Shown here: positions 3,201 through 46,620 of the stretch, in pieces | Layout: each line of letters begins with the position of its first letter | Position numbering within the stretch: the stretch's first letter is position 1 | Assembly (NCBI GenBank): GCA_019973155.2 | Contig: BPQB01000020.1 | Coordinates: forward strand, 434,001-498,000 | Origin: Phanerochaete sordida | Taxonomy: Eukaryota; Basidiomycota; Agaricomycetes; Polyporales; Phanerochaetaceae | DNA length: 64,000 nt | Direction: 5' to 3' | Notes under the pieces: model-generated | Told to the model about the DNA's origin: nothing | The model's input: the letters and a program-made list of their open reading frames with translations, nothing else | The model's database searches: none | Program-made: the position numbers and the translations under genes

Positions 3201-3353
3201 CCCTCGACGTCAGGCATTGCGGCGCTAAACTTGAAGACGGAGTAAGTGGGCTTCGTTGCCTACAACGGTCGTCTCGCTGACGGGCACAGGTCTGATAGCG
3301 ATACTATCTGGAAGCGTACGCTTAGGGGCGGTTATTCGTCAGACGAGTCATAG
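217..3353 (+). CDS. RTC4-like domain protein
   Basis: Five exons (217-1610, 1665-1717, 1773-2313, 2369-3241, 3290-3353) join in frame to 974 residues. The first 460 or so residues are disordered and rich in Ser, Pro and Lys, with acidic DSDSDDE-type patches. Exon 3 opens an RTC4-like domain with the CPWCDE zinc-ligand-like motif followed by a helical stretch (HLKHLMTAARR). It continues into exon 4 (YGELGSVIISQTIYDLF). The C-terminus is again disordered, with SKPASKSASKPAPKP basic repeats and an SDES end. RTC4 is known in yeast from telomere-capping genetics; its biochemical role is not established. The yeast protein is shorter, so the long tails are fungal additions. The gene converges on the BTB gene 92 bp downstream. 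The family call rests on the CPWC region and is fairly secure; function in this organism is unknown. Confidence 0.8.
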
Positions 3354-9975: not shown

Positions 9976-10475
9976 TGGCAAGTCGCCAGGATATATGCGC
10001 TGAGTCTTGACTCTCTGTTCTCTTCAGCACCGCTGACATGACACACGGAAAGTGAAGTTTGATGTCGCTGCAGACATGTATACGTAACACCTCCGCGCAT
10101 CTGGGCTTTGGACGTTTGAACGCTGTACTTCTTCAATTGTAATATTTGACTGCATCGCGACTTTGGTCAGAATATTGGACGCATGGCAAACATACGGCCT
10201 GCAAAATACAGGAATAAATTCGTTTCTCCGTGCAGAAAATGTTGCTCAGCTGCCCATAATAATGCTGTCGTAGGGCTCAGGGCGGGTGATGTCCCAAGAT
10301 CATGACAGAGTGAGATCAGGTTATATGCGCCGCGAGACGCCGCCGCGCTTGACGGGCCCTGGCTCGCTCTTCCGCCTGCAGCTCGTCCTCGACGCCCACT
10401 CATCGCACCGCTTTCACCGGCCCATCAGATCCTTTGTCGTCCACACACCTGGTACCTGATCCATACAGCCGTTGC
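9976..10475. other. Intergenic; left edge of duplicated arm A
   Basis: The first 300 bp is unique. From about 10,281 rightwards the sequence matches, in reverse orientation, the region ending at about 38,881. The shared part holds a TATA-like GGTTATATGC at about 10,319 and a GC-rich leader for TPT1. Confidence 0.6.
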
Positions 10476-11671
10476 ATGCTCGTCTTATGCTCACTGTCGG
10501 CACCGCTCAGACAATTGTCCACCATCATAGTCCGACTTGCGCGTCCTGTCTCGACCACGCACGTACGCGCCAAGGCTATGGCTACCACGCAACAAGGAGG
10601 CCCTGGAAACGCGCCGCGAGGCGACAAAAAGCCCCAGAGAGGTGGAACGAAGGCCTCTGGGAAGCAGAGGGGTCTGCGCACAGACAGCCCAGAAGTCCGT
10701 CTCTCGAAGACTGTGACCTGGATTCTGCGCCACGGGGCAGATCAGGAGGGATTGCAGCTTCGCCCTGATGGTTACGCCCGAGTCCAGGAACTTGTGTGTG
10801 CTACTGTCTTGGTCGTAGCGCGAATTCTAACTTTCGAGAAAGTAGCTGGATCGTCCGAAGGTGAAAGACCTGACGTTCGAAGGCCTCGAGGATATCGTCC
10901 AGAAAGACGCGAAGGGCCGCTTCTCCTTGATCCAGGAGCCGGACCCAAAGAGTAACTCAGATGAGCCGGTGTGGTGGATAAGAGCGAACCAGGGACATTC
11001 GATGAAGGTCTGTCGCGGCTGCACTTCACGCGTGTGCGACGCCGACGCTGCAGTGCTAACGCGTCTCCAGGCCGTGAAGCTCGACCTGCAGCCGGTACAA
11101 AACGTCTCGGACATACCCACAGCAGTTGCCGTCCACGGCACGAACGCGGTAGCCTGGGAGCTCATCAGTGCGTGCCTGCGCCACATTCCTCCAGAGCCAC
11201 GCTGACCCTGCCGCCGCCTGGCAGAGACACAGGGCCTGAGGAAGATGGAGCGGAATCACATCCACCTCGCGCAGGGCGTACCAGGCACAGGCGTGATCAG
11301 CGGTACGTACTCTCGCCTAGTAGCAGCCGTGTGTCGCCACCGCTCAGCTGCCTCGCGCAGGCATGCGCGTCACCGCCACCATCCTCATATGGATCGACGT
11401 GCAGAAGGCCCTCGACGCCGGGATCAAGTTCTTCCTGTCCGCGAACGGCGTCGTGCTCACCGAGGGCGACGATGCTGGGGTCCTGCGCCCCGAGTTCTTC
11501 CTGCGCGTCACGGACAAGAAGGGGACGGAGCTGACTGGCTGGAGGGCTGACTCGCCCGCTGCGGCGTCGACGCAGCAGTCTCTGGTCGCACAGGTTGGTG
11601 AGTCGACAGTAGCTGTACCTGAAGATGGTGTGGCCGAAGTACAGGCAAAGACGGAAGCCCTGTCTCTGTAA
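10476..11671 (+). CDS. TPT1: tRNA 2'-phosphotransferase, arm A copy
   Basis: Tpt1/KptA removes the 2'-phosphate left at the splice junction of ligated tRNAs, transferring it to NAD+. Exons 10476-10793, 10846-11007, 11071-11167, 11225-11302 and 11361-11671 give 321 residues (287 if started at the inner ATG, 10578). The family motifs appear in order: LSKTVTWILRHGA with the catalytic Arg-His, WIRANQGHSM with a catalytic Arg, VAVHGTN, ERNHIHLAQG, VISGMRVTA and FFLSANGVVLTEG. The 34 residues before the inner Met are rich in Arg, Ser and Leu, with no acidic residue. They look like a mitochondrial presequence and are conserved in the second copy, which is why I list the outer start. A Ser/Ala-rich tail follows the domain. 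The arm B copy at 37.5-38.7 kb is near identical. Confidence 0.92.
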
Positions 11672-13440
11672 AACCGTCATTACAAGACATCTTTATCTAA
11701 CACGATATCGCCATGCTCAGTCTCACAGACTCTCAATTTGACTCGCTCGCATTCAAACAGTGAAGTGAGGAGGACAATGATATATTTTATTATGCAGATA
11801 CATTAGCAAAGAAGAACGTGTACAGAGAGCAAGGATGATCGTCAAGCCACTAAAAACAGCTCAATACTTACAGGGCGCGTGTTGGTTTCCCCCTCGAGGC
11901 TGACCTCGAGAGGTACTTGTCCCCGAGACCACGAAGAGGTCCGCGCCCATCCCCGGGGAAATAGAAAGACGAGTCACAAAGGACCTCGTCGGGGTAGGAT
12001 AGCAGCAGACACACAACGGATGGTGACGACCCCCGGGCGTCGAACGAGCGGATGATGAGGCGACCACCAGGCGCACTCATATGAAACAGTGATCCAGATG
12101 ACTAGGTCATCGCCAGAAACAAGGGTAGGGTACCGGCGAGGGCTCCGAAGAGGCGTCGACGCCTCACGAGGAGGACACGGTACGAAACTGGGCCTGGCGG
12201 GTCCAGGGGGCAGGCCGTGCCGACGTCCATGGGTAGGAGGGTAAGTTGAGCGCACCCCCGGGTAGTGAAGGACGATTTACGGCGACGGCTGCTCCCGTGG
12301 CGTGGACCCGCCTAGAGTAGAGCGAGTGAGCTACTGAAGTAGAGAAAGACTGTCACGTACTTGTAGTGTGGAAGCGAATGCCAAGCCCGACGACCTCGAC
12401 GACTATGTGTGCGCTTCGGCAACGGAGCGGAAGGGACGAGTGATGAGGGACGGAGCAGAGCTCAACGTGAAGGATGAGGTACGGAGCAGAGCTCAACGTG
12501 AGGAGTGAGGGACGGAGCAAAGCTCAACGTCGTCGTCGGGTCGTCGGGCGCCGGGGTTGCTGAGGTCGGGGGTGGGAGTGCCAGAGGCAAGGGTGGTCAC
12601 GGTGGTGGTTGGGGACCTTGTGGTCGGGGGGTGGGGGTGCGCTGGGGAGACGAGGAGGCGACGGCTGGTATTTATACGCCAGAGACGGGCGGCTGACACG
12701 TCGACGCGTCCGGCAGGTCACGTTCAGCCTTGTTTACTCGATCGCCAGCCGCGAGCTCGTGCCGACATTGGCGACGATCGAGCGATCGCTCGACTCGGGG
12801 CAGTGAGCGACATGGGCGAGCAGCGGGACGGCGAGCAGGGCTGCGGCGTAGGGTGTGGCAGAGAGGAAGACATCGCGAAACGGGACGCTGGACGTACTTC
12901 TACTGTGTTTTCCGACGGGTCGCACCTTTGGCGAACCCAAATGCGACCGCGATGCCATCACTGCGTTTAGCAGGTGTTCTCCGCGTGAAGCTGTTGTCAA
13001 ATATAGCGAAACTACTCGCCGTAGGACGTAGGAAGCGACGTGAGAGTAGCAGAGGCTGAGACAGTCGATTCGACCGCAACGCCGCCAAGACCTTCTTCCT
13101 CCCTGGATGTAGGGCCAGTCCAGAGCCCAAAGAGATAGACATGCCGCAGCACAGGTTGCAGAGGAAGTAAGCCACTCCGAAGATCCAACGTCGTGGTGCA
13201 AAGCGTACCCAAAGCCGGCGCTTGTATAGTTCCCCGCATACAGAGGCGCCGACGTTGTGGCGTCTGTGCCTAGCGAGCTTGGCATCCAGGGCACGCACAG
13301 ACAAGTGATCCTAGCAATCCAGTTGTGTATTCATGAGTAGCCATGCACATGTGCCCAATATCCAAAGGAGAAACACCTCCGAGCGTAAGGAGCCCGGGCC
13401 CTACTCGTACAGCCATGCCAATTTTGACCCGAGTTCTTGC
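11672..13440. other. Intergenic block shared by both arms of the duplication
   Basis: This lies between the convergent TPT1 and lipase genes. The segment 11,870-12,720 is about 96% identical to 36,440-37,310 in the other arm although no known protein is recognisable. It contains several short frames (for example 12,255-11,974 on the - strand, 93 codons) that stay open in both copies. The segment 13,180-13,440 also matches the other arm closely. The middle (about 12,890-13,180) does not. Whether any frame is translated is undecided. Confidence 0.6.
12442..12532. repeat. Three tandem copies of a 31-bp unit (arm A)
   Basis: Three imperfect copies of a unit built around GACGGAGCAGAGCTCAACGT follow each other with a period of about 31 bp. 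The counterpart in arm B (36,638-36,730) keeps the same count and period. Confidence 0.8.
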
Positions 13441-14628
13441 CTAGCAGCCCATCTCGACGCCGTCGTAGGGGCCATCGTGATCCGACTCATCACCATCGAA
13501 GATATTCGGGACGTCGCCGACGATGCAAAGGTCGCTCGTGTTGTCCTGGCCTGCACAGCCCAGTCAGTGTTCCGCTTCACGGCCAAAGCGCCGGCAGCAC
13601 GCACCAGGGCACGCCTCCCAGACGTTCGCGTCCGTGATGTGCACCTCGCCCGAGGGGTGGTGGAAGCCGAGGAAGCGGCCAGGGACGATCGGGATCGGGT
13701 CCTCCTCGTTGTTGATGCGCGTGAACGACGTGACGTGCGCGTCGACGTAGTCCGCAAAGTCCTGATTCCCGACCTGCAACACGCATTGCGTCAGCCGCAG
13801 TCCGCAGTCTCATGCCAGAGAGGACTGCGCGAGGGGCGTACCCGGGGAAGGCCGTAGAGCACGGTCTGGAAGGACACACCCGAGACGTGCAGCGGCAGGT
13901 ACACCGCGTCGAGCAGTGCAATCGCGGCGCCGAGCGAGTGCCCGACAAGCGTGACCTTCTTCGCGCCGTACTTCGAGATGCCGGTCTTTACGGCGGCAAG
14001 GACGCTCGCGGCGGTCCTGGCGACAGCACGTGAGTATATGCGGGGCCTACGACGGCGCGGCTGACGCACTTGGCTTGTTCGTCGGCGAACCCAGAGTGCG
14101 CAGTGACAGACGAGCTGATGCCAGGGAAGAGCGACGAGTCGAGGCTTTCTCTGAATATGTCGGCGTCGGTCAAATCGGCCAGGCTGACGCGAGTCAGCTG
14201 CGTGAGGTCACCGCGGCCCATAGCGAAATAGGAGGCGGCTCACAACTCGCTGGTATCAGTGCCCTGGTGTGCGACGATGATGGTCTTTAGGGTGGGGTCC
14301 CATCCAGCATACCCTGCGCGCGCCCCATCAGCGCTTACAGTCGAAGACGCGAGGAGCGCAGGGACATACAGAACTGCGTGCCGTCGCCGTCGCCGCCGGA
14401 CGCGATGGGCTTGAACGTCGGGTTCGCCTGGCAGTTCGCGCCGCAGTTCCACGCGAGCGTGTTCGCAGGCGCGCAGTACGCCGTGCTGGCGTAGTGCGTG
14501 TACGGCTTGAAGCCCGAGATCGTGCTCGCACCGAGAGCGGTGATGCTCTGGCGCGCCTCGAGCGTCGGTGCGGCGAGCGCGGCGGGCAGCAAGGCGACGA
14601 GCGCAAGGAGTCCGCGGAGGAGGGCCAT
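13441..14628 (-). CDS. Secreted class 3 lipase, arm A copy
   Basis: The start is at 14,628 and the TAG stop at 13,441; multi-exon, about 300 residues. An N-terminal signal peptide (MALLRGLLALVALLPAALAA) is followed by an EARQ pro-segment. The alpha/beta-hydrolase core has the nucleophile elbow VTLVGHSLGAAIALLDAVYL (catalytic Ser in GHSLG), an Asp within NEEDPIPIVPG and a His in PSGEVHIT. Cys pairs near residues 50-65 (WNCGANCQANP) match the family. The C-terminus is DHDGPYDGVEMGC. These enzymes hydrolyse triglycerides or feruloyl-type esters outside the cell; the substrate cannot be told from sequence. A 68-bp intron (13,774-13,841) after YGLPR is present here and in the lipase at 19.7 kb but absent from the arm B copy. 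Confidence 0.88.
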
Positions 14629-16270
14629 GGCAGGACGGGGATGCGGCGGTGGAGGCTCCGAGGGTCTTTCGCGGCACGGGGGAAGTTCTTATGTGTGTAC
14701 CGCCGGTCGCCAAGCACATCGGCCAGGTGGTCCGCGACAGTCGAAGGTGCGTGAGCCATATGCTGTTTCCCTGCGCTTGGGTACATAGAAATTGCGAGAA
14801 CGCGCAGCGTGGGGGTGTTGAGGCGACCAGACGGGCTGCTTCAGCGGGTCATCTGTCTAATTGGTGATATGTCAGCATCCCGGGAGAGAACGAGAAGTTG
14901 GCCCGAACAAGACTTCTTGCTGCGCGACTGATCCGTCTATAGCACTCTCGCAGACTGGCCAATCTCTTGCATGAGTGAGGGTGCTTGTGACCTGTCTGCA
15001 AGCACGCGCGTCGTATGGGCTTCGTGGCACATGGATCGGTTCCTGGCGGCAGATAGATCCAAAGAAACGTGGCTCCCTCGGAAACGACAACAGGCCATGT
15101 TGACGAGGCCTTTACTCCCCGCCTGCATCAGCCACACCGAATGGCTCCATTTCCCTTGCGCTCGTGCGTAGAGTACCACATTGCTCGCAGTTCCCGCCAG
15201 TGCCTGAGCACAAGTTGTGGCATATCTTGGCATGACAGAACGACGTGAAGACGGACAGCCGTGACCCTTGCGTGGGCAACAGAAGCGTGGTAGGCGTACG
15301 CTTTCGGTGGGAGGACGAAATCGAAGCGGCAGGCAGGGAATCATGGGAGGTCCGTTGATCCGGCGCACTAGATGCGGATGCCGGCACCTTGGAGAACGGT
15401 TGGTGAGATGCTATGGGGAGGACTTGAGATCATTCAGGACTGTGTTATACACATGGGGAGATGTTGGGTGTGACAGATGGAGCGAGTAGACGTGAAACTG
15501 ACCCTGCTAGATAGTATATCAGCATACACCTACGACCTGGGTGCGCTTGAGCCATGTGAGGTCATGTATGCCACCTCACGCGATAGCGGGGTCATATTCA
15601 ACGCAGCTTTAGCTGATTAGAGGTTCTACCCCTAGAACATACGCAGAGTAAACTCACAGATGCGCCTATCTGCTTCCCCGCCCCGCCGCCAGGTTCCTCC
15701 CCTTCGCTTTGCATGGCCGGTCAAGCGAGAGCGTGCCAAGCAGAAACTCACAGATATCCCATGTCGTCGCCCGTTCGGAGGCCACCGCCAGAGGTATGAC
15801 AGGACTTGCAGGCTGTACGCGTACGAGTCATATTGCACCTGTTCTGGCGGTGGATCCGAAGGTCGAAGTCAACGGAGAATTTGCCACGGCTTGAATTGTC
15901 TTGATGTGAGGAAGAAGACTATCTCGCACTGGTCAGAAGTTGACATGAGAGACGACTTTCAAGTGTGGAATGAGGAGGGAGGAGACAAGAAGTGCGTGGG
16001 AACGCTGCTCACCTGCGCCTCCTGCCCACCTCGTAGGCGCCCACTTGACCCGCCTCTCGGAGGCGGCCTTCGTTACGCCTTCCCGGAGAAATGGGCAGAC
16101 TCGAGTACTCGGGTATCGCCAACCAAATGATCATCCAGTCTTCGCATAGCAGCTGTGGTACGCGATATTTTACAAGGAGCGTCATATTGTCCAAAAAGTA
16201 GTCGGATATATGCTACGAGAAAGTCCTAAATCCAAAGCTGAACCATCGTGCATAATGTCCCCACAGAAAA
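14629..16270. other. Intergenic, 1.6 kb, no gene seen
   Basis: This holds the promoter of lipase A (-) and the 3' flank of the Gly/Asn-rich gene (-). No similarity to arm B is visible upstream of the lipase start, which sets the edge of the duplication. Open frames near 14,937-15,368 and 15,660-16,130 lack any recognisable domain. Confidence 0.5.
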
Positions 16271-19715: not shown

Positions 19716-20979
19716 TTAGCAGCCCATCTCGACGCCGTCGTAGGGGCCATCATGATCAGACTCGTCGCCGTCCCAGATCTCGGGCACATCGCCGACGATG
19801 CACTGCGTGCTCGGATTGTCTTGGCCTGGCGCGCGGGTCAGCTCGGCGGCGCAGCGCGCGGGGCGGCAGGGTACGCACCAGGGCACGCCTCCCAGGCGTT
19901 CGCGTCTGTGATGTGCACCTCGCCCGCCGGGTGCACGTAGCTGAGGAACATGCCCGGCACGGTCGGGATCGGATCCTCCTTGTTGTTGATGTGCGTCAGC
20001 GCGAGGTGCGCGTCGACGTAGTCCGCGAACGCCTGGTTCCCGACCTGCGAGCGCGTGTGTCAGCTGCGGATGGCGGCGCCGCGCGACGGCACAGCGCGGC
20101 ACGCACCCTCGGGAGGCCGTAGCCAATCGTCTTGAAGCTCACGCCGCTGATGTGCAGGGGAAGATACACCGCGTCGAGGAGCGTGATCGCGGCGCCTGGG
20201 GATAGCACATTGTCAGCACATTGTTGGGCGGGCGCAACCCGCGGCGCGCAGGCGCAGCAGGCACTCACCGAGCGAGTGCCCCACCATGGTAACCTGCTTC
20301 GCGCCGTATCGCGAGATCGCGGTCTGGACTGCGGACAGCACCTGCGGGGCGGTCCTGTGCGACAGGAATAGCTCGCTGAGCGTGTGTTATATTTAGAGCG
20401 GATCGTGGATCTTACGACGCCTGCGCATCCGCGAAGCCGCTGTGGACCTCGATGGACGAGCTGATACCGGGAAACAAGGACGAATCGAGAGTCGCCTTCT
20501 CAACGTCGCCATCAGTCAGGAGGGGCTCTCTGTGAAAGGTGTAAACACGTAAACACGTGAAGGCGAGATAGCGGGACAGCAGCTCTCACAGTTCGCTAGG
20601 ATCAGTCCCTTGGTGGGACACGATGACCGTCTTGAGGCTCGGATCATAACCCACGAACCCTACGGAATCGCTTGTCAGCCGACGCACGCACATCCAGGTC
20701 GAGACCGCGCCTACAATACTGGACGTCGTCGCCGTCGCCACCCGAGGCGATAGGAATGAAGCTAGGGTTCGCCTCGCAGTTGGCCCCACAGTTCCAGTCT
20801 GCCGTGGCCGATGCCGCGCAGTAGCCGGCGCTCGCGTAGTACGAGTACGGCTTGTAGGACGAGATCTGGCTCGTGCTGAGCGCCGAGATCGTCTGCCGCG
20901 CAGCAAGGCGTTGTGGCGCCGGCAGCGCCACGACGGCGACCGCCATCAGCGCGAGAAGCGGGAGGCAGCGGGCAAGCAT
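19716..20979 (-). CDS. Secreted class 3 lipase, third copy
   Basis: The start is at 20,979 and the stop (TAA) at 19,716; multi-exon, about 300 residues. A signal peptide (MLARCLPLLALMAVAVVALP) is followed by RLAARQ, then SSYKPYSYYASAGYC and WNCGANCEANPSF as in the other two lipases. The catalytic elbow VTMVGHSLG is interrupted right after GHSLG by an intron absent from the other two copies, then AAITLLDAVYLPLHISG follows. The likely acid is in NKEDPIPTVPG and the His in PAGEVHIT. It ends DHDGPYDGVEMGC. It lies between the duplicated arms, in the same orientation as the arm A lipase, and is clearly more diverged than the A/B pair. Confidence 0.87.
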
Positions 20980-24729: not shown

Positions 24730-24740
24730 AAGCGCCTGCT
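24730..24740. repeat. Left target-site duplication of the DUF6589 transposon
   Basis: AAGCGCCTGCT lies immediately before the left terminal repeat. The identical 11 bases lie immediately after the right terminal repeat at 28,450-28,460. Confidence 0.92.
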
Positions 24741-24883
24741 AGTCTCGTACCAGACCTTCCTGACGAATTTGGCAATCGAATCAGGAAGGTCTGGTCTCCA
24801 GCCAACGGCGGAGGGGGGGGTCGACATTTCGACGCGCGAGCGTTCGGCGCCTACCGCGCTTGCTCCTGCTCGTACCCCTCCGC
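24741..24883 (+). repeat. Left terminal inverted repeat, 143 bp
   Basis: It matches the reverse complement of 28,307-28,449 at 139 of 143 positions by hand alignment. Internally it holds a 14-bp inverted repeat (CCAGACCTTCCTGA, 24,750-24,763, and its complement, 24,781-24,794) separated by 17 bases, so each end can form its own hairpin or present two head-to-head binding sites. Confidence 0.92.
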
Positions 24884-24967
24884 CGCCGACCTCGTCGCTC
24901 CCTGGCCTGTTCTGCTTGTATTAGCCCCTCGAATGCGATATATTTTACTCCAGTACAGTCTGTGAGC

Positions 24968-27776
24968 ATGCCGTCAACATACTACACCCGCTCCGCCCCT
25001 CCACCGTCTCCAGAGGCTGCTCTCGACTCCTTCAGCGACCTCGACCGGGATTTCGAAGCTACAAGCACTATAGGGCGTTCCTCATCACCGCCATACCTCT
25101 CCGATGACGAGGAGACCCTCAGGCAGCATCGTATACAGCAGCGGGTCAACGTCACGCAGCTAGCCGGCCCTCTCCAGTCTGATTCCGACGACGACGAAAC
25201 TGGAGAGCGCATGAGCCCTACCGAGAAGACCCTCACCATCCTGAAGCTCATGAGAAAGAAGTGTCCGCGCTTTAGTCTGCGGAGCTTCATTCTCGAGCTG
25301 TTCACGTCGGACAATGGAGATCTGAAGGCCGCTGTCGGCAACTTTGTCCGTGACGGAGGCGTCTTCCAGCTCATGGAAGTCTTCTGGGAGCTCAGTACAC
25401 ACTGGCAGCGTGGCAAGTTCGACCCCCGTATGGCCTCATGGGTCGTCTCGCATGCTGCAGAGGTCGTTGATCAAGAGTTCAGCTGGCTCACAAACCGCGC
25501 AAGCGAAGGTCCGCATTATGCAGCAGCGGACAGCCTTCGCGTCTCTGCTGAGAACACTTCGGTCGACCTGGTACGCAACTTCGAACTCCCGAAGCTCACG
25601 CAGCTGTACGACAACACCCTTCCGCACTTCCAGCACATTCTCCGGGCCGCTATAGGGAAGGAAGACGACGAGGTTGAGAACGGAGAGGACGTGATTGCAG
25701 GAGATCAGGAGGGAACAGGGATAACTGGACGCAGCCCTAAGAATGTGAGTTGTATTACGTCTTCATCTATGTATTCTCCTGACCTGGAGAGCGCAGGCTC
25801 GGACTATAGCTACATCTATCGCTCTGAACATGCGCAGCCGCAATACAAACTACCATGCTGTCGTGAATGCGCTGGTTATGTGGGAGCAGCGAGTGCCGAA
25901 GCGGCTCTGTGAAGCCTTCAATCACTACTGTATCTCAGCCTCGTACCCCTTCATCAGCCGTGCAATAGAAGCTGTTAGTCAGGACTCTACACGCCTTGCG
26001 CAGGCCGCTGCTACGGACCCTGCAAAGCTCATAATGCTACCCTACGATAACTTCAACTGGCGAGAACGTGCATGGGAAACCTCCGCGGCACACGGAACGG
26101 TTCAGCACGACCAAGTCTCCGCCATGCTCGTCTCATTATGGATCCCCGAGAACCTGCGTGACGTACCGGCTGTGCACCTCGCGGACGTTGCCCGATTCGA
26201 TGCGTTGACTGGTCGCCGCCACACCGTACCATCGGAGGAAGCACTCGAGTCCATCCTTCCAACCGACATCGACGACAATTTATTCTACGATAGCGTTGCC
26301 CTCCACGTTGCGACTGTTCTCGCCAGCGACCTCCCCTGCTTCCGAAGGTTTGCTCGCCTTCTTCCGAAGTTTACGGACCCTTCTGCGATTACGCCACATA
26401 AGACTGACCGGACGTACCTTCCGACGTTTGATCACGAACAAGGGTCAACCAAGGGCAATATGGTGGTTCTCTCGCACTATTTTCTGGACGTCTTGAAGAT
26501 CCCGAAGGAGTCCTTCCAATCCCGTATGGTCTTCGTCCTTGGAGACCGGCTCACCACCGCACGTGATCGTGCCGCACAGGACCAGCGGGCAATTGACCGT
26601 TCGTCGATGCGAGCGGATCACTTCTCGAGCATCGCGCTGACAGGAGGTCTTATGCACTACTGCCTGAACATGGTGCGAAATATTGGCGTCAACCACTGGG
26701 GAGGTGCCGCGAAGAACGGCGATGCAGTCAGTCTCATGGTGCTGCGCGACGTGCTTCCGAACCGCAGCGAAATCAACACTCGCAAGGTCGATTTCTACGC
26801 ATGGCTGAGATTCCTCGACGTCATCCTGCGTGCACTGGTCACGACTGCAGCGCTCGCATGCCTTGGTTGCGACACGCCCTCAGAAGCCGCCTACAAGACT
26901 GACGAGATGAGCATTGAAGCATTTCGGTCTCTCTGCGCTGAGATCACCAAAAGACATATCTTTTCGCCTGTCCGTGCGCACCCAAGCACCGAACGAACAT
27001 TGTCAAATAATGCCACCTTACTGCTGTATCACCTTATGACCCTTCGCGAGATGCGTCACGCTATCAAGTACGGTCATCCGACTCGGATCCATCGCATCCT
27101 CAAATATTGGATGCCCATGTTCTACGCTGGCGGAAGCTACAACTACTCAAACGAGTGTATGGAGATGCTCCACAACCTTTGCAGTGACTGGCCTGAGGAC
27201 TCGGCTCATGTTCTGCTTGCGTCTATGCTAGTCAATACCACCGGGAACGCGGACGGCTTCAAGGAATGTGACCTCGATGTCGAACACCTCAATAACAACA
27301 TCAAGGCTCGTGCACATGGAGCGAACGCGTCACCCGATCTACTCAAGAATATCACGCCCGCAATCGGCGAGCTGAAAGGCCTCACTGACCAGCTATATCG
27401 TGATCTCGGCGTCGAGGCTGTGTACCAGCGTCACCATCATGTCCAGCAAACCAAAGACTTCGCGATTCTACTGGAGCACTTCAACAGTCATCATATATTT
27501 CGCCCAGATGCTGCTACTACTAAGCATACTCCGGTGGACCTCTGGCGGCGCGGACTACAGCGTGTGGCAGTGAAGGGCGGTGGGCATGCGAAGCACTTAG
27601 CCCGGCACAGGCTTCGACTGCGCACGCGCCATGGGAACGAGCTTGATGGTGGCAGTGCAGGATTTGGCGAGGATGATTCTGGCTGGAACGAAGGGGCAGA
27701 CGAGGAGCAGGAGGACGAATTTGATCTAATGAACAGTGAGTTAGACCTCGATGCACTCGGTTTGGAGCTGTTCTAG
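24968..27776 (+). CDS. DUF6589 family protein, probable transposase
   Basis: Exons 24968-25744 and 25797-27776 (52-bp intron, gtgagt...cgcag) give 918 residues. The first 85 residues are disordered and acidic. Residues from about 85 include the helical segment KTLTILKLMRKKCPRFSLRS. The splice restores the family's N-terminal block (ALNMRSRNTNYHAVVNAL). Further family features are LPYDNFNWRER (about 341-350), VFVLGDRLTTARDRAAQDQR (about 504-523), and VNTTGNADGFKECDLDVEHL (about 738-757). The tail is basic and then acidic (WNEGADEEQEDEFDL). Pfam lists the family as of unknown function. Placement between terminal repeats and candidate acidic residues Asp343, Asp509 and Glu755 suggest a DDE-type transposase; that role is inference. 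The recognition of DUF6589 is from memory of the family pattern. Confidence 0.85.
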
Positions 27777-27795
27777 GTAGCACGACGTACTGCGC

Positions 27796-28224
27796 TCATG
27801 TATCCGCATTCGCCGCATTCGCAGCGTCTTTCGCTTGTGGTCGTGGCTTCTTCTGCGCAGCGTACGCAGCAGATGCTTTCAGAGCATCTGTGCGCTTCGG
27901 AAGGCTCTCCAGCCCGTCTTCCAGTATTTGCTGTACGACTCGATGAGTTGTTTCGACGATCCAAGGCGCTACAATCGACCAGTATGCGATTGTCGCGACA
28001 CCTCGCAGGCTGTCGACGGACTCGATCGTGTCCGCAACCTTCGAGATTCTGTAGAGGGCGGCGTCTGAGAGAAGATCCTCCTCGTCCAAACTGCGCCACC
28101 TCCGCTTCCACTCCTCCGCCCATATGTGTGCGCGAGCGGCGTACAGCTCTCGGAAGACCGCTTCGTGTTCGCTGGCCTTGAGTACAGAGTGGCGTCCTCC
28201 CACGCTCGGATCCACTGTGATCAT
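27796..28224 (-). CDS. Second ORF of the transposon, RecQ-tail-like
   Basis: This 142-residue ORF begins at the ATG at 28,224 (MITVDPSVGGRHSVL) and ends 20 bp from the stop of the DUF6589 gene, in convergent orientation. The same frame is open upstream to the terminal repeat and adds RVCCSYCNPELKPSREFQ. That run resembles the zinc-ligand end (CCxxCNPEL) common at the C-terminus of basidiomycete RecQ-like helicases, as does the following helical part (DEEDLLSDAALYRISKVADT). The end is Ala/Lys-rich. It may be an accessory protein made from a spliced upstream exon, a captured gene fragment, or untranslated. I cannot decide which. Confidence 0.5.
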   Translation of the reverse strand: MITVDPSVGGRHSVLKASEHEAVFRELYAARAHIWAEEWKRRWRSLDEEDLLSDAALYRISKVADTIESVDSLRGVATIAYWSIVAPWIVETTHRVVQQILEDGLESLPKRTDALKASAAYAAQKKPRPQAKDAANAANADT

Positions 28225-28306
28225 CTGAAACTCGCGGGAAGGCTTGAGCTCGGGATTACAATAAGAGCAGCAGACACGAGGGGTGTCTGACCGGGTAAGA
28301 GACTGA

Positions 28307-28449
28307 GCGGAGGGGTACGAGCGAGAGCAAGCGCGGTAAGCGCCGAACGCTCGCGCGTCGAAATGTCGACCCCCCCTTCCGCCGTTGGCTGGAGACCAGA
28401 CCTTCCTGATTCGATTGCCAAATTCGTCAGGAAGGTCTGGTACGAGACT
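28307..28449 (-). repeat. Right terminal inverted repeat, 143 bp
   Basis: Reverse complement of the left repeat with four mismatches, all in the inner half. It carries the same internal 14-bp inverted repeat (28,396-28,409 and 28,427-28,440). Confidence 0.92.
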
Positions 28450-28460
28450 AAGCGCCTGCT
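28450..28460. repeat. Right target-site duplication of the DUF6589 transposon
   Basis: AAGCGCCTGCT, identical to 24,730-24,740. It is not part of either terminal repeat. Confidence 0.92.
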
Positions 28461-31822: not shown

Positions 31823-34525
31823 CCGCCCAGCGGCGGCGCGCGCGGTCGGCCGGAAGGGCGCTCCATTGAGCAGTCCTTGCGGGTGGCCTCCAGTCTGCGC
31901 GGAGCGAGAAGAGGAGAGCTGCAGTCGCGGACCTGCAGGGATCGCACGCCGAGTATAAATGCCACCGCGGACGACAGAAGGGCTTGGCACTCCCCTGCGA
32001 TTCTCCCCCAGGCTCGGGAGACGCACTCTGACTGAAACAAACTCGGGCGGCGGCCATGGGCTGGCCTTGGTCTCGCCCATATGCACTCAGGCACCATGCA
32101 GTCTTTTTCTCACCTATAATACTCTTCGAGCTTTCGCCTTCGCATGCCCCGTGTTATGGTTATTGGTCGTGGTTCCCGGACTCCCCTGTAATAATGCACT
32201 GTTTATTTCTTTCCTCTTGGACCATGCAGCAGTACCGGATCGCCTTTGAAGTATGTGTACTATGTCTGCTACGTTATGCCTTAGAATATTACACAACGTC
32301 GCAAAGCACTCCGGGGGATTGAGAAGGCCTGACCAGGATGAGCGCTCCTCGCTTTCGCCGACGGGTCGTCGTGGCGGGATGTTCCCGCGCTTTCTTGTTC
32401 TCAACACACTCGACGAGCTTAAACTCGTCGTCTTCTCACCATACGTGGAGGCACGCGATAGCTCGTCCAAAATACGACCACGACCCTCGTGACATACGCG
32501 CGATGTGCAACCATATTCGACTTCGCGGAGGCTGTCATTCGTGACCAAGCGCAGCGCGCCCGCCAGGTCGTGTGATACACAAAATCCTCACTCCCCTGCA
32601 TCCTGTCCACGACGCCTCTGCGCCAGTCTGCGCCTCCGTACACGACACTCTTTTCTGCGGGCTCGCCGGCCCCCTCGATGCGACGGTCCGCCATGGGAGC
32701 TCCCCGCTGGCCTCCCTGTGCGCCTCGACGCGACCCACCCGGCGAGGCACCAACACGGAGGCGTCGCATCGTCCGCAGCAGCGACAACTCTGTCGCGCGT
32801 GCTGCGAGCCGGTAATCAAGCCCCCGCCAGGATTACAGCAGCCAGGAATAGCCCGTCGAGGGGCAGCTGCCCGTCGCGCCGCGCTAGGTACCCGCGATCG
32901 TCCATCTCCCGTGCAGATCGCCTGCGCCCCGCCCGGGGGCTACGAACGGCTCCGGACGCCACAGACCCCCCGCCCGACTCGGACAGCATTTTTTTCTGCG
33001 CAGCGCGCCGGCGCGCCCGCCATGTCGTGGGCGGCCAGCGCTCGCGCCGGCACGGGGACAGGCGGGTTACGGGTCAGCCCACCTCGCGCGAATTCCGAAT
33101 TGTACGTTCAGCATCCCGGTCTGCAGGTCGCACCGAGTCGCTGGAGCATTCCGAATTCGAGGCTGGAAGGATGGTGCGTGACGGCAGCCTGTCAGGCGTC
33201 GGTCTCGCGCGGGCGGCGCCACGGCGCGCTTTCATCTATGGGCGGTACTGTGGCAGACGTCGGTGTGTCAACTCTCCTGGACTCATCGCTGGACCGTCAT
33301 CGACCTGCTGCCGCCGTTCCCGTCGCGAGATCTGTCGTCATCTCCTCTGACGACAGCTTCCCAGCGCCACCTATCGCGGAGACCAGGCATCACCTCATGT
33401 TCCTATCCGTGCAAAGTGCAATATTGAGGCCAAAACCTACCTGGTGTCCTGGTATTACATAACTACGCCTCTGACGTCGACGTCCTTGACCTGATCTCTG
33501 CACAGCTCTTGGTTACTCTTGCCCGGATGTTTCTCGGAACCGTACCCCTCTCCCTGTGTACCTACCATCTTCAGTTCCTACAAGCGACATGTTGGCCTCA
33601 ACTCGCTCTCATCGTGTATTGCTGCACCCTGAGTCTCTTACCTCCTGTGCACATTTGTTCAGAAGTCAAGGCCGACGCTAGCGGCGAAACGACTCTGCAT
33701 GTCCTCCCGATCGATGACGCAAAGCAAGGGTGCGTGACCACCTCATGCTGCGATAGCTGTCGCACTGACCTTCTCTCAGCTTTCCCCCCTCGCCTGCTGG
33801 TCGCGCAGTGACTTCGCATCACAGACACGCTCAGTCCTGCGAACATCTGTAAATCCGTGTCAATGTTCTGAACATTTCATCAATCGTTGATGAGACCGCG
33901 AGGCACGCGACGGGATGCTCTTTAATGCGTGTCGACATCAGAGCAACCTCGCTGCGAGCTTCCGCCTCTCAGGAATAGCATCAGCTTTCGGAACCGGGAG
34001 ATATCTTGCGCTTGACGAGCACAAGGGCCCACGTTCGATGTTCGGCTGTGAACAGCTGGAAGAGACCCATGTGCCACGAAAACCACGGCACTCCCATTCT
34101 CTCACCTTCAGAAGCCTCCAGCGCGGGCATGTCAGAGGCGAAAGCCTGTTATGTTCCTTAACGGGCTGCGGCGGCCCATCGAAGCCTCGACGAGGCCCCT
34201 CTATGCGCTGCCATTCGTTGTCGACGGATCATATATAGCACAGGTGAGGCAGCCGGCTCCAATATTTCACACGTGCTGACATATCGATAGACTAGTGTGC
34301 GGGCATGATGTCGCACCACATGTGCCGCTCGCCCACCCCTCCCGTACCGCCGCATGCACAGCGACAGGAGGACACATATGGCGCACTCTTCCATGTCGTC
34401 CTCCATCAGCACAACGACGAAGGAACGTTGTTCGTGTGTCCTGCGATAAATAGCCCTTGGACGCCTCTGCAGGACGCCCGGAGTCCTCGATCCTCTCGCC
34501 CTCTGCGCCCGCGCCAGACCTCGCC
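31823..34525. other. Intergenic, 2.7 kb, with a possible small gene near 33.2-33.8 kb
   Basis: Most frames overlap on both strands and show no motif. Between about 33,238 and 33,811 (+) there is an ATG (MGGTVADVGVSTLLDSSLD), SSDDS and, further on, DASGETTLHVLPIDDAKQ before a gtgcgt donor; these could be exons of a small protein. Splicing cannot be settled by eye, so I do not list a gene. No similarity to the region upstream of lipase A was seen. Confidence 0.35.
34446..34452 (+). promoter_or_regulatory. TATA-like box of the arm B lipase
   Basis: ATAAATA lies 74 bp upstream of the ATG at 34,526. No equivalent is seen at the same distance in arm A. Confidence 0.4.
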
Positions 34526-35635
34526 ATGGCAGTCCTCACCGGCCTCCTCGCGCTCGCCGCCGCACTGCCCGCCGCACTCGCCGCGCCGCGCCTTGAGGCG
34601 CGTCAGAGCATCTCCGCGCTCGGCACGACGACGATCGAGAGCTTCAAGCCGTACACGTTCTACGCGAGCACGGCGTACTGCCAGCCCTCGGCGACACTCA
34701 CGTGGACGTGCGGCGCGAACTGCCAGGCGAACCCGAGCTTCGAGCCCATCGCGTCCGGCGGCGACGGTGACGCCACCCAGTTCTGTGCGTGCCCCTGGCT
34801 CTCCCGAGCGCCGTGGAGCGTGTGCTAACTCTCCCCGTAGGGTACGTCGGCTACGACCCGTCCCTGAAGACTGTTACTATCGCGCACCAGGGCACCGACA
34901 CGAGCGAGTTGTAAGCCCCACTGTCCCATGCTGTCTTCCGCATCGTCTCACCCGTGCCCAGCCTCGCTGATCTTACGGACGTGGACATCTCGATGACCAC
35001 TCTCGACTCTTCTCTCTTCCCGGGTGTTTCCTCCTCCGTTGAGGCCCACGAAGGCTTTGCGAACGAGCAGGCAAAGTAAGCTGCGCATTTTCTGGTAGGC
35101 GTATGCTTGCTGATCCATTGCCCTCAGGACCGCCACGCAGATTCTGTCCGCCGTGCAGACCGGCATTTCCAAGTTCGGCGCGACGAAGGTCACGACCGTC
35201 GGCCACTCGCTCGGCGCCGCGCTGTCGCTCCTCGACGCGGTGTACCTCCCGCTGCACATCAAGGGCGTGTCCTTCCAGACCGTGCTCTACGGCCTGCCGC
35301 GCGTCGGCAACCAGGCGTTCGCGGACTACGTCGACGCGCACGTCAGCGCGTTCACGCGCATCAACAACAAGGAGGACCCGATTCCTATCGTCCCTGGCCG
35401 CTTCCTCGGGTTCCACCACCCCTCGGGCGAGGTGCACATCACAGACGCGAACGTCTGGGAGGCGTGCCCTGGTGCGTGCCGCTGTCGCATTGGCCGTGAA
35501 GTGGGACACTGACTAGGCTATGCAGGCCAGGACAACACGAGCACTCTCTGCATCGTCGGTGACGTCCCGAATATCTTCGATGGTGATGAGTCGGACCACG
35601 ATGGGCCCTACGACGGCGTCGAGATGGGCTGCTAG
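34526..35635 (+). CDS. Secreted class 3 lipase, arm B copy
   Basis: Five exons (34526-34784, 34841-34910, 34962-35075, 35128-35471, 35526-35635) give 298 residues. The signal peptide MAVLTGLLALAAALPAALAA is followed by RLEARQ and then the Cys-bearing WTCGANCQANPSF. The nucleophile elbow is VTTVGHSLGAALSLLDAVYL; the acid is likely in NKEDPIPIVPG and the His in PSGEVHIT; the end is DHDGPYDGVEMGC. The role is extracellular ester hydrolysis; the substrate is unknown. Exon 4 runs uninterrupted across YGLPRVGNQ, whereas the other two lipases have an intron there. Its first exon is only about 82% identical to arm A at the DNA level, while its last exon and 3' flank are about 96% identical. Confidence 0.9.
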
Positions 35636-37494
35636 GCACGAAAACTCGGGTTAAAATTGGCATGGCTGTACGAGTAGGGCCCGGGCTCCTTACGCCCGGA
35701 GGTGTTTCTCCCTTGGATATTGGGCGCATCTACATGGCTACTCATGAATACACAACTGGATTGCTAGGATCACTCGTCTGGGTGTGCCCTGGATGCCAAG
35801 CTCGCTAGGCACAGACGCCACAACGTCGGCGCCTCTGTATGCGGGGAACTATACAAGCGCCGGCTTCGGATGCGCTTTGCACCACGACCTTGAATCTTCG
35901 AAGTGGCGTACTTCCTCTAATCTGTGCTGTGCTATGACTACCTCTTTGGACTCCGGACTCGCTCTGGCAGCAGAAAGCGTGTCAAAGGACCCCGGACACT
36001 ACCCCCCCTACCGGCCCTTGCTGAGGTCCGTGTCAGCGATTCGGATCGCGCACCCCTCTTGAGCCATGAAGGAAGGAAGTCTTATCGGCTGTCGGGATGA
36101 CTGCCACCGACTATCGCGGCCTCTGGCACTGCTCAGGTCGTCCTCCGTTCTACGGCGAGTCATGCTATGGTATTTCACAGATACCTCACAAACACCACAG
36201 TTGTCTGAATACACTGGAGGCACTGTGACTGGACATTGGTGCGCCGAAGACGCCGTCGGCAGTTTCGTCGGGTACGTCCAGCGTCCCGTTTCGCGATGTC
36301 TTCCTCTCTGCCACACCCTACGCCGCAGCCCTGCTCGCCGTCCCGCTGCTCGCCCACGTCGCTCGCCGTCTCCAGTTGAGCGAGCGCTCGATCGTCGCCC
36401 ATGTCGGCACGAGCTCGCGGCTGGCGATCGAGTAAACAAGGCTGAACGTGACCTGCTGGACGCGTCGACGTGTCAGCCGCCCGTCTCTGGCGTACAAATA
36501 CCAGCCGTCCGCCCCTCGTCCCCTCAGCGCACCCCCACCCCCCGACCACATGGTCCCCAACCACCACCGTGACCACTCCTGCCTCTGGCACTCCCACCCC
36601 CGACCTCAGCAACCCCGGCGCCCGACGACCCGACGACGACGTTGAGCTTTGCTCCGTCCCCCATCCCTGACGTTGAGCTTTGCTCCGTACCTCATCCCTG
36701 ACGTTGAGCTCTGCTCCGTCCCTCATCACTCGTCCCTTCCGCCCCGTTGCCAAAGCGCACACATAGTCGTCGAGGTCGTCGGGCTTGGCATTCGCTATCC
36801 CACTACAAGTACGTGACAGTCTTTCTCTACTTCAGTAGCTCACTCGCTCTACTCTAGGCGGGTCCACGCCACGGGAGCAGCCGTCGCCGTAAATCGTCCT
36901 TCACTACCCAGGGGTGCGCTCAACTTACCCTCCTACCCATGGACTTCGGCACGGCCTGCCCCCTGGACCCGCCAGGCCCGGTTTCGTACCGTGTCCTCCT
37001 CGTGAGGCGTCGACGCCTCTTCGGAGCCCTCGCCGGTACCTTACCCTTGTTTCTGGCGATGACCTAGTCATCTGGATCACTGTTTCATATGAGTGCGCCT
37101 GGTGGTCGCCTCATCATCCGTTCGTTCGACGCCCGGGGGTCGTCACCATCCGCTGTGTGTCTGCTGCTATCCTACCCCGACGAGGTCCTTTGTGACTCGT
37201 CTTTCTATTTCCCTGGGGACGGGCGCGGACCTCTTCGTGGTCCCGGGGACAAGTACCTCTCGAGGTCAGCCTCGGGGGGGAAACCAACACGCGCCCTGTA
37301 AGTATCAGGTAGTCAGTGATGGCGGCTCTCCACCCTTGCTCTCTGTACGCTTTCCTCTGCTAATGTATCTGCATAATAAAATCTATCCTTGTCCTCTTCA
37401 CTTCACTGTTTGAATGCGAGCGAATCAAGTCGAGAGTCTGTGAGACTGAGCATGGCGATATCGTGTTAGATAAAGATGACTTGTAATGACGGTT
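35636..37494. other. Intergenic block shared by both arms (arm B)
   Basis: The first 250 bp and the segment 36,440-37,310 are nearly identical to arm A. The segment of about 35,930-36,260 is unrelated to its counterpart. Frames such as 36,914-37,195 (+, 93 codons) remain open in both arms but match nothing I recognise. A short frame ending SSRLAIE (stop near 36,435) is also kept in both. Confidence 0.55.
36638..36730. repeat. Three tandem copies of a 31-bp unit (arm B)
   Basis: Units starting GACGTTGAGCTTTGCTCCGT begin at 36,638, 36,669 and 36,700, differing at a few bases. This is the mirror of 12,442-12,532. Confidence 0.85.
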
Positions 37495-38686
37495 TTACAG
37501 GGACAGGGCTTCCGTCTTCGCCTGTACTTCGGCCACACCATCTTCATGCACAGCTACTGTCGACTCACCGACCTGTACGATCAGAGACTGCTGCGTCGAC
37601 GCCGCAGCGGGCGAGTCAGCCCTCCAGCCAGTCAGCTCCGTCCCCTTCTTGTCCGTGACGCGCAGGAAGAACTCTGGGCGCAGGACCCCAGCATCGTCGC
37701 CCTCGGTGAGCACGACGCCGTTCGCGGACAGGAAAAACTTGATCCCGGCGTCGAGGGCCTTCTGCACGTCGATCCATATGAGGATGGTGGCGGTGATGCG
37801 CATGCCTGCGCGAAGCAAGTGAGCAACTGGGCAGCGACACACGGCTGCTAGGCGAGGGCACGTACCGCTGATCACGCCTGTGCCAGGCACGCCTTGCGCG
37901 AGGTGGATGTGATTCCGCTCCATCTTCCTCAGGCCTTGTGTCTCTGCCAGGCGGCGGCAGGGTCAGCGTGGCTCTGGAGGGATGTGGCGCAGGCACGCAC
38001 TAATAAGCTCCCAGGCTACTGCGTTCGTGCCGTGGACGGCGACACCTGTGGGTATGTCCGAGACGTTGTGTACCGGCTGCAGGTCGAGCTTCACGGTCTG
38101 GAGACGCGTTAGCACTGCAGCGTCGCACACGCGTGAAGCGCAGTCGCGGCAGACCTTCATCGAGTGTCCCTGGTTCGCTCTTATCCACCACACCGGCTCA
38201 TCTGAGTTACTCTTTGGGTCCGGCTCCTGGATCAACGAGAAGCGGCCCTTCGCGTCTTTCTGCACGATATCCTCGAGGCCTTCGAACGTCAGGTCTTTCA
38301 GCTTCGGACGATCCAGCTACTTTCTCGAAAGTCAGAATTCGCGCTACGACCAAGACAATAGCACTCACAAGTTCCTGGACTCGGGCGTAACCATCAGGGC
38401 GTAGCTGCAATCCCTCCTGATCTGCCCCGTGGCGCAGAATCCAGGTCACAGTCTTCGAGAGACGGACTTCTGGGCTGTCTGTGCGCAGACCCCTCTGCTT
38501 CCCAGAGGCCTTCGTGCCACCTCTGTGGGGCTTTTTGTCGCCTCGCGGCGCGTTTCCAGGGCCTCCTTGTTGCGTGGTAGCCATAGTCTTGGCGCGTAGG
38601 TGTGTGGTCGCGACAGGACGCGTAAGTGGGACTCTGATGGCGGACAATTGTCTGAGCGGTGCCGACAGTGAGCGTAAGACGAGCAT
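37495..38686 (-). CDS. TPT1: tRNA 2'-phosphotransferase, arm B copy
   Basis: Near-identical second TPT1, in the opposite orientation, with the same five-exon layout. The start at 38,686 includes the Arg-rich presequence-like leader (MLVLRSLSAPLRQLSAIRV); the inner ATG is at 38,584. The catalytic motifs are intact (ILRHGA, WIRANQGHSM, VAVHGTN, RNHIHLAQG, FFLSANGVVLTEG). Differences from arm A are mostly conservative, for example AVKLDLQPVQ versus TVKLDLQPVH. I see no frameshift or stop, so both copies should be functional. Tpt1 normally acts alone, in the final step of tRNA splicing. Confidence 0.9.
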
Positions 38687-39139
38687 GCAAGGGCTGTTTG
38701 AATCAGCTACCAGGTGTGTGGACGACAAAGGATCTGATGGACCGGTGAAAGCGGTGCGATGAGTGGGCGTCGAGGACGAGCAGGCGGAAGAGCCAGCCAG
38801 GCCCCGTCAAGCGCGGCGGCGTCTCGCGGGGCATATAACCTGACCTCACTCTGTCATGAGCTTGAAACACCACCCGCCCTGCACATCCCACGCCTAGATT
38901 ACTGGTGCAAATCTTCCGCTCCCTGTCTCCCAGAATTCGCGCAGGCATCACCGAAAGCCGTCAGCAGCTCGCCGACGAGTCAGGCCCGACAGCGCTCGGA
39001 TCCACAGCCGCACCCCAGGAAACCCACAGTGCGTGTACAGCATTTGTTTCGGGCACGGTGCCTGATGGGCACGCTAGCAGCGGTTCCAGCAGGACATATA
39101 AGACCCACCGTTCCACGAAGATCTCTATGAACCCCTGCC
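38687..39139. other. Divergent promoter region of TPT1 (arm B) and APP1
   Basis: About 450 bp. The left half belongs to the duplicated arm and includes GCATATAACCTG near 38,830; from about 38,882 the sequence is unique. No gene was seen. Confidence 0.5.
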
Positions 39140-41529
39140 ATGTCTAACGAGATGTCCTCCTGGAGGTCTTGGACGAGTTCAGTCAAGGGCTACGGAAGAT
39201 CGCTTCGCCCTCCAAATGCCGATGGCTCTCCGCGTCCGTCCTGGAGCCAATGGGCAGGTCAGAAGATACGCTCTTCTCTCAACACGGGCGAAGGCACCAG
39301 TATCAATAGCTTCGAGAAGGTGTCGCTGTTCCCTGGCTGGGCCTGCCGAAGGTATCACGCGGATACCGAGACATCCATGGAGGGTAAGCTCGCCACAGTG
39401 ATCCTCCATATCTTCACACCTCAGCGGTGATAATGACCGGATCGTCCAATTTATAGATACTGCACCCTTCGACGTAGAGCTATTCGTCTCGGGATTTGCT
39501 ACACGGGCAAGTGGCATAGGATTTACCACGCGAACAGGAAAGGCGTTTCTCAGACTAGCAAAAAGTACGAGGCATATCGTATTGTCTTGGCATGCTATCC
39601 TAACCTCCTTAAAGGCTATGCGGCTCTGCCCAAACTTGTGACTTCCGATTACGAGGACGCCACCGTTGGACCTAATGGCATGGCTCCGGGTCGTTCTGCT
39701 TCGTTCTATGCGGAAACGCGGCAGCCTCTACCACAGCCCGACGAAACAGAAGATGAAGCCGAGCTAGCGGAGCTGAAGGAGCGCATGCATCAGCTGGAAC
39801 TCGACTCAATACAATCTTCAGGTTCTCTATCGTCGTCACTTCGCACGGACAGTCTATTTGACGGCTCGCCAGGAAACAGCTATCCTCCCACACCGAGATC
39901 AATTACGGACGATCTTCGCAAGCTCCATGACAACCTGGAATCGCGGCTGGTGCCGTTCTGGTCATCATCCCTCGCATCGCGCACGGTACACATCGCCGTC
40001 TATGCACACGATCCGGGGAGGAAGGACTTCTTCAAAAGCCCCGCCATGGGCAGCGACGCTCAGGATGAAGACTATCATTTCCAGAGACAGCCAATAGCCA
40101 GCGCAGACGTCGTGACGGGCCCCGACGGCTCCTTCCAGAAGAAGTTCCACATTCAGTGGCAGCACCTATGTGTGCATCCTGCTGCGCTGCAGCTTGCATT
40201 TGGCGACCTCGATCGGGAGCACGACCTCTACGTCACAGCGGATCTTATGCCCGCACGCCCACCAACGCCCAACGCGCAAGTTCCCTATGCCGTCCGCCAA
40301 CAACCAGTGCGCAGCCCTCGTAGTAACGTTCCGACTGCGAGAAGCGACCTCGTGATTCCTGTCACTTCTGCGACGATACGACTCATTTCGGATATCGATG
40401 ACACAGTCAAGATGTCCGGCGTCGTGAGTGGCGCAAGGTCCGCTTTTTACAATGTCTTCGTAAAGGACTTGGCGGAGAATGTCATTCCCGGCATGGGCAA
40501 TTGGTATATGGACATGTGGTCACGGGGAGTGCGCTTCCACTACGTGGTATGTCTTCGTTCACTTGCGAATTTGAAGTCTTTGCTCACGTCCCGCCTCAGT
40601 CCAACGGTCCGTTTGAGTTATTGCCGGTCGTCAACGACTTCTTCCAGCTCTCAGGTCTGCCTCCGGGCTCAGTGAAGCTCAAATCTTACGCTGGTCGAAC
40701 ACTCTTCAATGGACTGTTCTCCGCACCTGCAGAGCGCAAGCGTGCAGGAATCGTGGATGTGCTCGACAGCTTCCCTACGTCCCAATTCTTCCTCGTTGGC
40801 GACTCTGGCGAGCAAGACATGGAACTCTACGCGTCGTTCGCTCGAGAACGCCCACACCAAATACTGGCCATCTTCATTCGAGACGCTCACAATCATGATC
40901 ACGTTCCGCCGCTGGACGATCCGACAGGCGAGCGGATGCCACAGTACCTTCCGCAACGCAAGGGCACGCAAAGTTCAGGGTCGTCGTTTGGTTCTCCACC
41001 ATTGCCTGCTGCGCAGCTCAGCGATAAGACGCTCACTCCTATCCACCGACCGTATCGTACAGCCTCTGGCACGGATATCCCATCCTCCAGTGGTCGACCT
41101 CCCCTCCCTCCGCGCCTGCCCAAGCGCACGAAGTCGGACATGCCGTACCAGCCGACGATAACCGAGCACGAGGACTACTTCGGGTCGCTCATCGATACAC
41201 CGATCTCGGAGGAGCCCGCGCCCATCGCGGCGCCGTCGACGAGCCCGACGTCGTACCCCCCGGCGATGTGGTCGCGCCGGCGACAGGACGACGACAACTC
41301 GTCGACGTCGTCGAAGATGTCGCTCGGCGCGCGCTCCACGACGTCGCTGCGCGGTGTTCCGCCGATGACGGAGGCGGAGCGCAAGCAGGCGGAGCTGCAG
41401 CAGCGCGTGTGGAGAGCGCGGATGGAGATACCGGATCGCATACCCCTGCGCGTCTTTAGGCACCCGTCGGAGTGCATCGAGACGCAGCAGATACTGGACC
41501 AACTCAATCTCAGCCGGCCCCAAGCGTAA
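39140..41529 (+). CDS. APP1: Phosphatidate phosphatase APP1-like
   Basis: App1 dephosphorylates phosphatidate to diacylglycerol and in yeast associates with actin patches. Exons 39140-39383, 39457-39564, 39615-40546 and 40600-41529 give 737 residues. The N-terminal part holds VSLFPGWACRRYH and FDVELFVSGFATR as in fungal homologues. The DUF2183 catalytic domain starts with SATIRLISDIDDTVKMSGVV, which has the DxDxT motif (DIDDT), and continues with GNWYMDMWSRGVRFHYV, PPGSVKLKSYAG and FFLVGDSGEQDMELYASFA. The C-terminus is a long disordered Pro/Ser/Arg tail ending with a helix (EAERKQAELQQRVWRARMEI). Polyproline stretches (RPPLPPRLPKR) are candidate SH3 ligands, consistent with actin-patch partners. 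Confidence 0.92.

Positions 41530-44508: not shown

Positions 44509-46620
<2,112 letters not shown>

Follow-up and report, generated by a model that had tools for sequence, protein, structure and literature searches.

What kind of element encloses the DUF6589 gene found between long inverted repeats in the white-rot polypore Phanerochaete sordida, and is the encoded protein responsible for its movement? The gene lies in a stretch of 64,000 nucleotides, hereafter the window, corresponding to positions 434001-498000 of contig C20 in the 40.8-Mb assembly, and an initial annotation had described it as the only gene of a complete, cargo-free transposon with a probably new type of transposase. Our analysis makes it highly probable that the element, which spans positions 24740-28450 of the window, derives by internal deletion from a cut-and-paste transposon of the AcademH type with two genes, DUF6589 being its DDE transposase.

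The boundaries of the element can be read directly from its ends. The terminal inverted repeats (TIRs), initially given as 143 bp with four mismatches, extend to 144 bp, all four mismatches falling within the inner 143, and the two copies are still 97% identical. Each TIR contains a 47-bp palindromic stretch, and the termini read 5'-TAGTCTCG...CGAGACTA, the terminal T and A being part of the TIR. The 11-bp direct repeat AAGCGCCTGCT is indeed present as letters on both flanks (24730-24740 and 28450-28460), but it does not represent the target-site duplication (TSD), because a length of 9 bp was found in all 12 elements compared. The 11-bp reading adds to the 9-bp TSD AGCGCCTGC the T or A with which the TIR terminates and, on each side, one coincidentally matching base. 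Twelve elements in the genome have TAGTCTCG ends recognised at both termini, and in each of them the TSD is exactly 9 bp (11 of 11 scored as such, and a twelfth, on C33, read from the printed letters); the duplicated sequences vary between elements, and random pairs of 9-mers from the window were equal in 15 of 2,000,000 draws. Duplications of 9-11 bp had been anticipated at other copies; they are present, and all measure exactly 9 bp.

These elements come from genome searches in which only the best candidates were scored, and the resulting counts are lower bounds. The search with the 143-bp end, proposed in the initial annotation, returned at least nine matches, which comprise four pairs plus a lone degenerate end; besides the query, there were seven matches of 143-148 bp and one partial match of 106 bp. 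The three further pairs bound short copies with perfect 9-bp TSDs outside their TAGTCTCG ends (C20:84120-86043, C110:43245-45022 and C1:2341391-2343256), whereas the degenerate end of this family at C75:108591-108696 (L013 4092-4197) is preceded by TATTCTCG instead of TAGTCTCG. A second search, with the end of a larger DUF6589 element on C37, gave at least 28 matches, including seven further pairs in which both ends were read and all TSDs are 9 bp (C9, C36, C3, C20:198k, C17, C2:1079k and C33); single-end or internal matches on C27, C15, C2:723k, C31, C51, C16 and C83 stand outside the TSD count.

The window gene has two exons separated by a 52-bp intron; it is open and encodes a protein of 918 residues without a stop codon, as first described. 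At a Pfam limit of E 1, the sole family matched by exon 2 is DUF6589, and the frame of exon 1 matches none. That the protein is the transposase of the element, as originally suggested, is very probably right. This role is well supported by the predicted fold, which in models from two species (P. sordida and Irpex) resembles the RNase-H-fold DDE transposases Hermes, P element, ISCth4, Transib and RAG1, the comparison that had been suggested at the outset. It is further supported by the DUF6589 element on C37, which has matching ends and a TSD of its own, and by the short copies, which hold the 5' part of the gene between the same ends. D343, D509 and E755, picked from secondary structure and the numbering of Hermes and the P element, are proposed as the catalytic triad; other acidic residues of DUF6589 are equally conserved in the 71-row alignment.

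Mutator-like elements (MULEs), too, typically have long TIRs and TSDs of 9 bp, and ISCth4, of the IS256 group, is among the fold matches, so that one might think of a MULE that acquired DUF6589 as cargo. However, the Pfam scans revealed no MULE domain in either exon of the window gene or in the scanned C37 open reading frames, DUF6589 itself has a transposase-like predicted fold, and its association with the same kind of helicase recurs, one further pair (on C37) being bounded by similar ends. We regard a MULE origin as very improbable.

The descriptions "complete" and "cargo-free" are not confirmed. The space between the DUF6589 gene and the right TIR, from 27796 to about 28290, is filled by the C-terminal remnant of a RecQ-like helicase gene, the only part of that gene left in the window copy, and such helicases adjoin eight of the nine other DUF6589 loci; a single-gene element was rejected accordingly. 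The tail has a minus-strand open reading frame that reads ...VCCSYCNPELKPSREFQMITVDPS...; 19 bp separate its stop codon from the one that ends DUF6589. In a phmmer comparison with 20 helicase sequences, for which set the E-values hold, the tail matches the C-terminal parts of six (P0184, 9.7e-23; P0185, 1.6e-22; P0194, 1.3e-20; P0186, 4.5e-18; as well as P0187 and P0188; overall range 9.7e-23 to 4.7e-7). More distant helicases gave weak or negative results: phmmer 0.0054 to C2 among seven tails, an hhalign probability of 0.4, a best value of 0.15 among 31 C2-type helicases, no place among the 40 matches listed for the profile of those 31, and no meaningful BLASTP match. The identity of the tail is settled because the closer, window-type helicases match. 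No other match to the tail was found in the genome. As for the missing motor domains, TIR homology reaches 167-169 bp in the C20, C110 and C1 short copies and ends at 144 bp in the window copy, adjoining the start of the helicase-like reading at about 28290. Such an arrangement is consistent with loss of the motor through a deletion whose putative junction is near the inner edge of the right TIR.

DUF6589 matches in the genome number at least 18, spread over at least 10 loci including the window. The element at C37:137422-144408 (6,987 bp), a second DUF6589 gene between terminal repeats such as the initial annotation had called for, has the ends TAGTCTCGTCCC and TAGTCTCGTTCC and the TSD GACACAGTG; its TIRs are 77% alike over 103 bp and differ in sequence from those of the window element. 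DUF6589 lies on one strand and the helicase on the other, the two converging, and the helicase frames match DEAD above and Helicase_C below the Pfam cut-off. Related helicase frames, whole or partial, are found within 1.6 kb at eight of the nine non-window DUF6589 loci and are convergent at seven of them (C37, C2, C26, C12, C189, C152 and C9; only the C-terminal helicase part at C12). The pairs at C152:1066-5471 and C9:427460-432202 are highly similar, representing a recent copy or two haplotypes, and these two loci may not be independent. From the helicase side, at least 17 places were recovered, of which eight are beside DUF6589, two are in short copies (C1 and C20) and seven have no DUF6589 match nearby (C27, C64, C10, C12:38k, C76, C95 and C4). 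At C27, the RecQ-like helicase (255296-255919 and 257093-257219) is close to a TAGTCTC-type end match and is perhaps a helicase-only derivative. In viral contigs, 36 stretches fitted a DUF6589 pattern and none was confirmed.

The short copies, 1.8-1.9 kb in length, contain only the 5' parts of both genes. In C20 and C1 the helicase part lies at one end and the DUF6589 part at the other; C110 retains 1,132 bp from the DUF6589 side and 646 bp from the helicase side. All three appear to be internal deletions of a two-gene parent. The existence of short copies with the same ends could alternatively mean that a host DUF6589 gene, which is not the transposase, was trapped where a short non-autonomous element had inserted on either side of it. 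Yet a single matching 9-bp TSD encloses the whole unit (by eye, no separate TSD was seen around each window TIR), the short copies themselves contain the DUF6589 5' part, and C37 repeats the layout with another TIR sequence and its own TSD, making such entrapment extremely improbable.

Under the AcademH-type interpretation, the transposase would consist of a largely helical N-terminal part and an RNase-H core (proposed residues D343, D509, E755), into which a large helical segment is inserted ahead of the final acidic residue. The TAGTCTCG ends, internal palindromes included, would be bound and cut by this protein and then joined to a staggered target, yielding the 9-bp duplication. The intact parent would carry a second gene, for a RecQ-like helicase, in convergent orientation to that of the transposase; the window copy would have lost the helicase motor while keeping the tail and an open transposase gene, and the C20, C110 and C1 short copies could be mobilised in trans by the window transposase.

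Several observations weigh against this interpretation. Both ends and a TSD were recovered at only two of the 10 DUF6589 loci (window and C37). The C2 locus has one clear end (right), and no pair of ends was evident at the remaining seven: the inverted repeat at C189 (88% over 50 bp) lacks a TAGTCTC end, C12, C26 and C9 contain lone TAGTCTC-like words to which no pair was assigned, and no pair was found at C30, C152 and C213. The helicase is divergent from DUF6589 at C213, and at C30, a locus truncated by the start of its contig, a range of 10 kb contained no related helicase. The DUF6589 match on C37 contains a stop, maybe an intron, and the two genes of this element are putatively intact. 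P0184 and the DUF6589 protein P0010 come from the same source and from contigs of 4407 bases, and P0185 and P0008 likewise from contigs of 4321 bases, equal contig size being only an indirect sign that helicase and DUF6589 share one contig. An empty site with a single copy of the duplication, which the initial annotation had proposed to look for, was not found in the genome, where the 300-bp left flank is single-copy. With respect to the fold, no Foldseek match of the window model reached E 0.001 (best 3.4e-3), the best value for the Irpex model was 2.9e-3 with ABC transporters (probability at most 0.06) at ranks 3-5, and the DUF6589 sequence profile matched no PDB chain, those of hAT and P element transposases included. 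Finally, the link to AcademH was made through helicase type, TSD length and fungal presence, and homology of DUF6589 to Academ transposases is putative.

Table 1 Features of the DUF6589 element and its flanks (window positions)
Feature	Position	Strand	Basis
Left TSD AGCGCCTGC, 9 bp	24731..24739		Sequence and comparison across elements
Left TIR, 144 bp, begins TAGTCTCGTACC	24740..24883	+	Inverted-repeat comparison; TAGTCTCG termini on both sides in 12 elements
Palindrome within left TIR, 15-bp perfect arms	24749..24795		Read directly from sequence
DUF6589 gene, exon 1, 259 codons	24968..25744	+	No Pfam family (scanned as longer open frame 24968-25912)
DUF6589 gene, intron, 52 bp	25745..25796	+	Most canonical among six frame-keeping splice pairs
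DUF6589 gene, exon 2, 659 codons and stop, proposed catalytic core	25797..27776	+	Pfam PF20231, 7e-89; model pLDDT (predicted local distance difference test) 89.8
Codon of proposed catalytic Asp 1, D84 of exon 2 = D343, YDNFNW	26046..26048	+	Asp in 70/71 rows, other is a gap
Codon of proposed catalytic Asp 2, D250 of exon 2 = D509, GDRLT	26544..26546	+	Asp in 70/71 rows, other is a gap
Codon of proposed catalytic Glu, E496 of exon 2 = E755, DLDVEHLN	27282..27284	+	Glu in 68/71 rows, 2 gaps, 1 Lys
C-terminal remnant of RecQ-like helicase gene, in convergent orientation to DUF6589 and lacking the motor domains	27796..28290	-	phmmer; 0/200 shuffled tails match helicases
Putative internal-deletion junction, inner edge of right TIR	28291..28307		TIR homology limit and start of helicase-like reading
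Right TIR, 144 bp	28307..28450	-	Inverted-repeat comparison
Palindrome within right TIR	28395..28441		Read from sequence
Right TSD AGCGCCTGC, 9 bp	28451..28459		Sequence and comparison across elements

Elsewhere in the window, an inverted segmental duplication of about 4.4 kb (10278-14631 versus 34523-38881, pieces 82-96% identical) flanks the element on both sides, and a partial third copy lies at 19717-20357. Positions 48470-48903 and 55694-56130 form a direct, coding-looking duplicate (77-81% identical in the two pieces listed). The minus strand at 44515-45783 encodes a protein with DEAD and Helicase_C domains (Pfam 2.2e-36 and 4.4e-34, respectively) that probably belongs to the host rather than to the transposon type of helicase. 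The plus strand encodes an APP1 phosphatidate phosphatase domain at 39437-40672 (2.1e-12) and an RTC4-like domain at 2286-3242 (2.4e-16).

These results assign a likely function to DUF6589. This Pfam family, listed without a function and recurrent among basidiomycete genomes, very probably represents the transposase of helicase-carrying (AcademH-type) transposons. This link may have been unannotated so far and is useful in itself, the window element being probably a damaged member of an already described group. Proteins labelled "DUF6589" and fungal RecQ-like or "P-loop NTPase" proteins would then deserve scrutiny as possible transposon products before being included in any tally of host genes. 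Furthermore, the presence of a helicase-less copy beside two-gene relatives allows asking whether transposition, or the 9-bp stagger, needs the helicase.

Comparison with known systems narrows the classification. The DUF6589 model has in common with Hermes, a hAT transposase, and with the P element an RNase-H core interrupted by helices ahead of the final acidic residue; hAT and P elements, however, have 8-bp TSDs and are not known to encode a helicase. MULEs resemble the window element in their long TIRs and 9-bp TSD and differ in the domain of the encoded protein. KolobokH, with its TTAA target duplication, was rejected, the duplications here being 9 bp and of varied sequence. It is unlikely that DUF6589 elements form a separate superfamily in which a hAT/P-like DDE transposase and a RecQ-like helicase came together independently of Academ, with copies such as the present one, open in the transposase gene and devoid of the helicase motor, perhaps able to move although they encode no helicase. 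Another reading is a transposon group of its own, Academ-like only in its helicase partner and 9-bp TSD. Exon 2 matching PF20231 alone would fit such a group, as would the failure to find the name DUF6589 in the literature searched, of which coverage was partial (the sole match to PF20231 was an unrelated optics paper), and as would the putative status of any homology between DUF6589 and Academ transposases; we nevertheless judge it unlikely, since helicase type, TSD length and fungal presence equal those in the accessible parts of the published accounts of AcademH and fungal Academ elements (PMC10045372, PMC10799480, PMC6416283). Because of the same agreement, AcademH appears to be the best name. 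The combination of transposase, helicase and a TSD of 9-10 bp has already been published for AcademH (PMC10045372), and the window element most likely does not found the new family initially suggested. According to these accounts, as far as accessible, AcademH is a low-copy element in Basidiomycota, Ascomycota and Mucoromycota (PMC10799480), recognisable domains, PF00270 and recQ_fam among them, are present in 1,568 of the 1,938 Academ copies reported from fungi (PMC6416283), and putative non-autonomous Academ elements are widespread in a mushroom, in a study that also searched with the Academ profile from Muszewska et al. 2017 (PMC8290104). TSD length, 9 or 10 bp in AcademH and 3 or 4 bp in AcademX, is tied to the encoded helicase and nuclease (PMC10045372). 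The 9-bp TSD and the helicase set the elements studied here apart from AcademX, which belongs to the same superfamily as AcademH. With the AcademH lineage (Kojima 2020) as citing papers describe it, DUF6589 elements share a 9-bp TSD, TIRs, genes for a transposase and a RecQ-like DEAD helicase, and few copies in a basidiomycete, the window copy differing in having lost the helicase motor.
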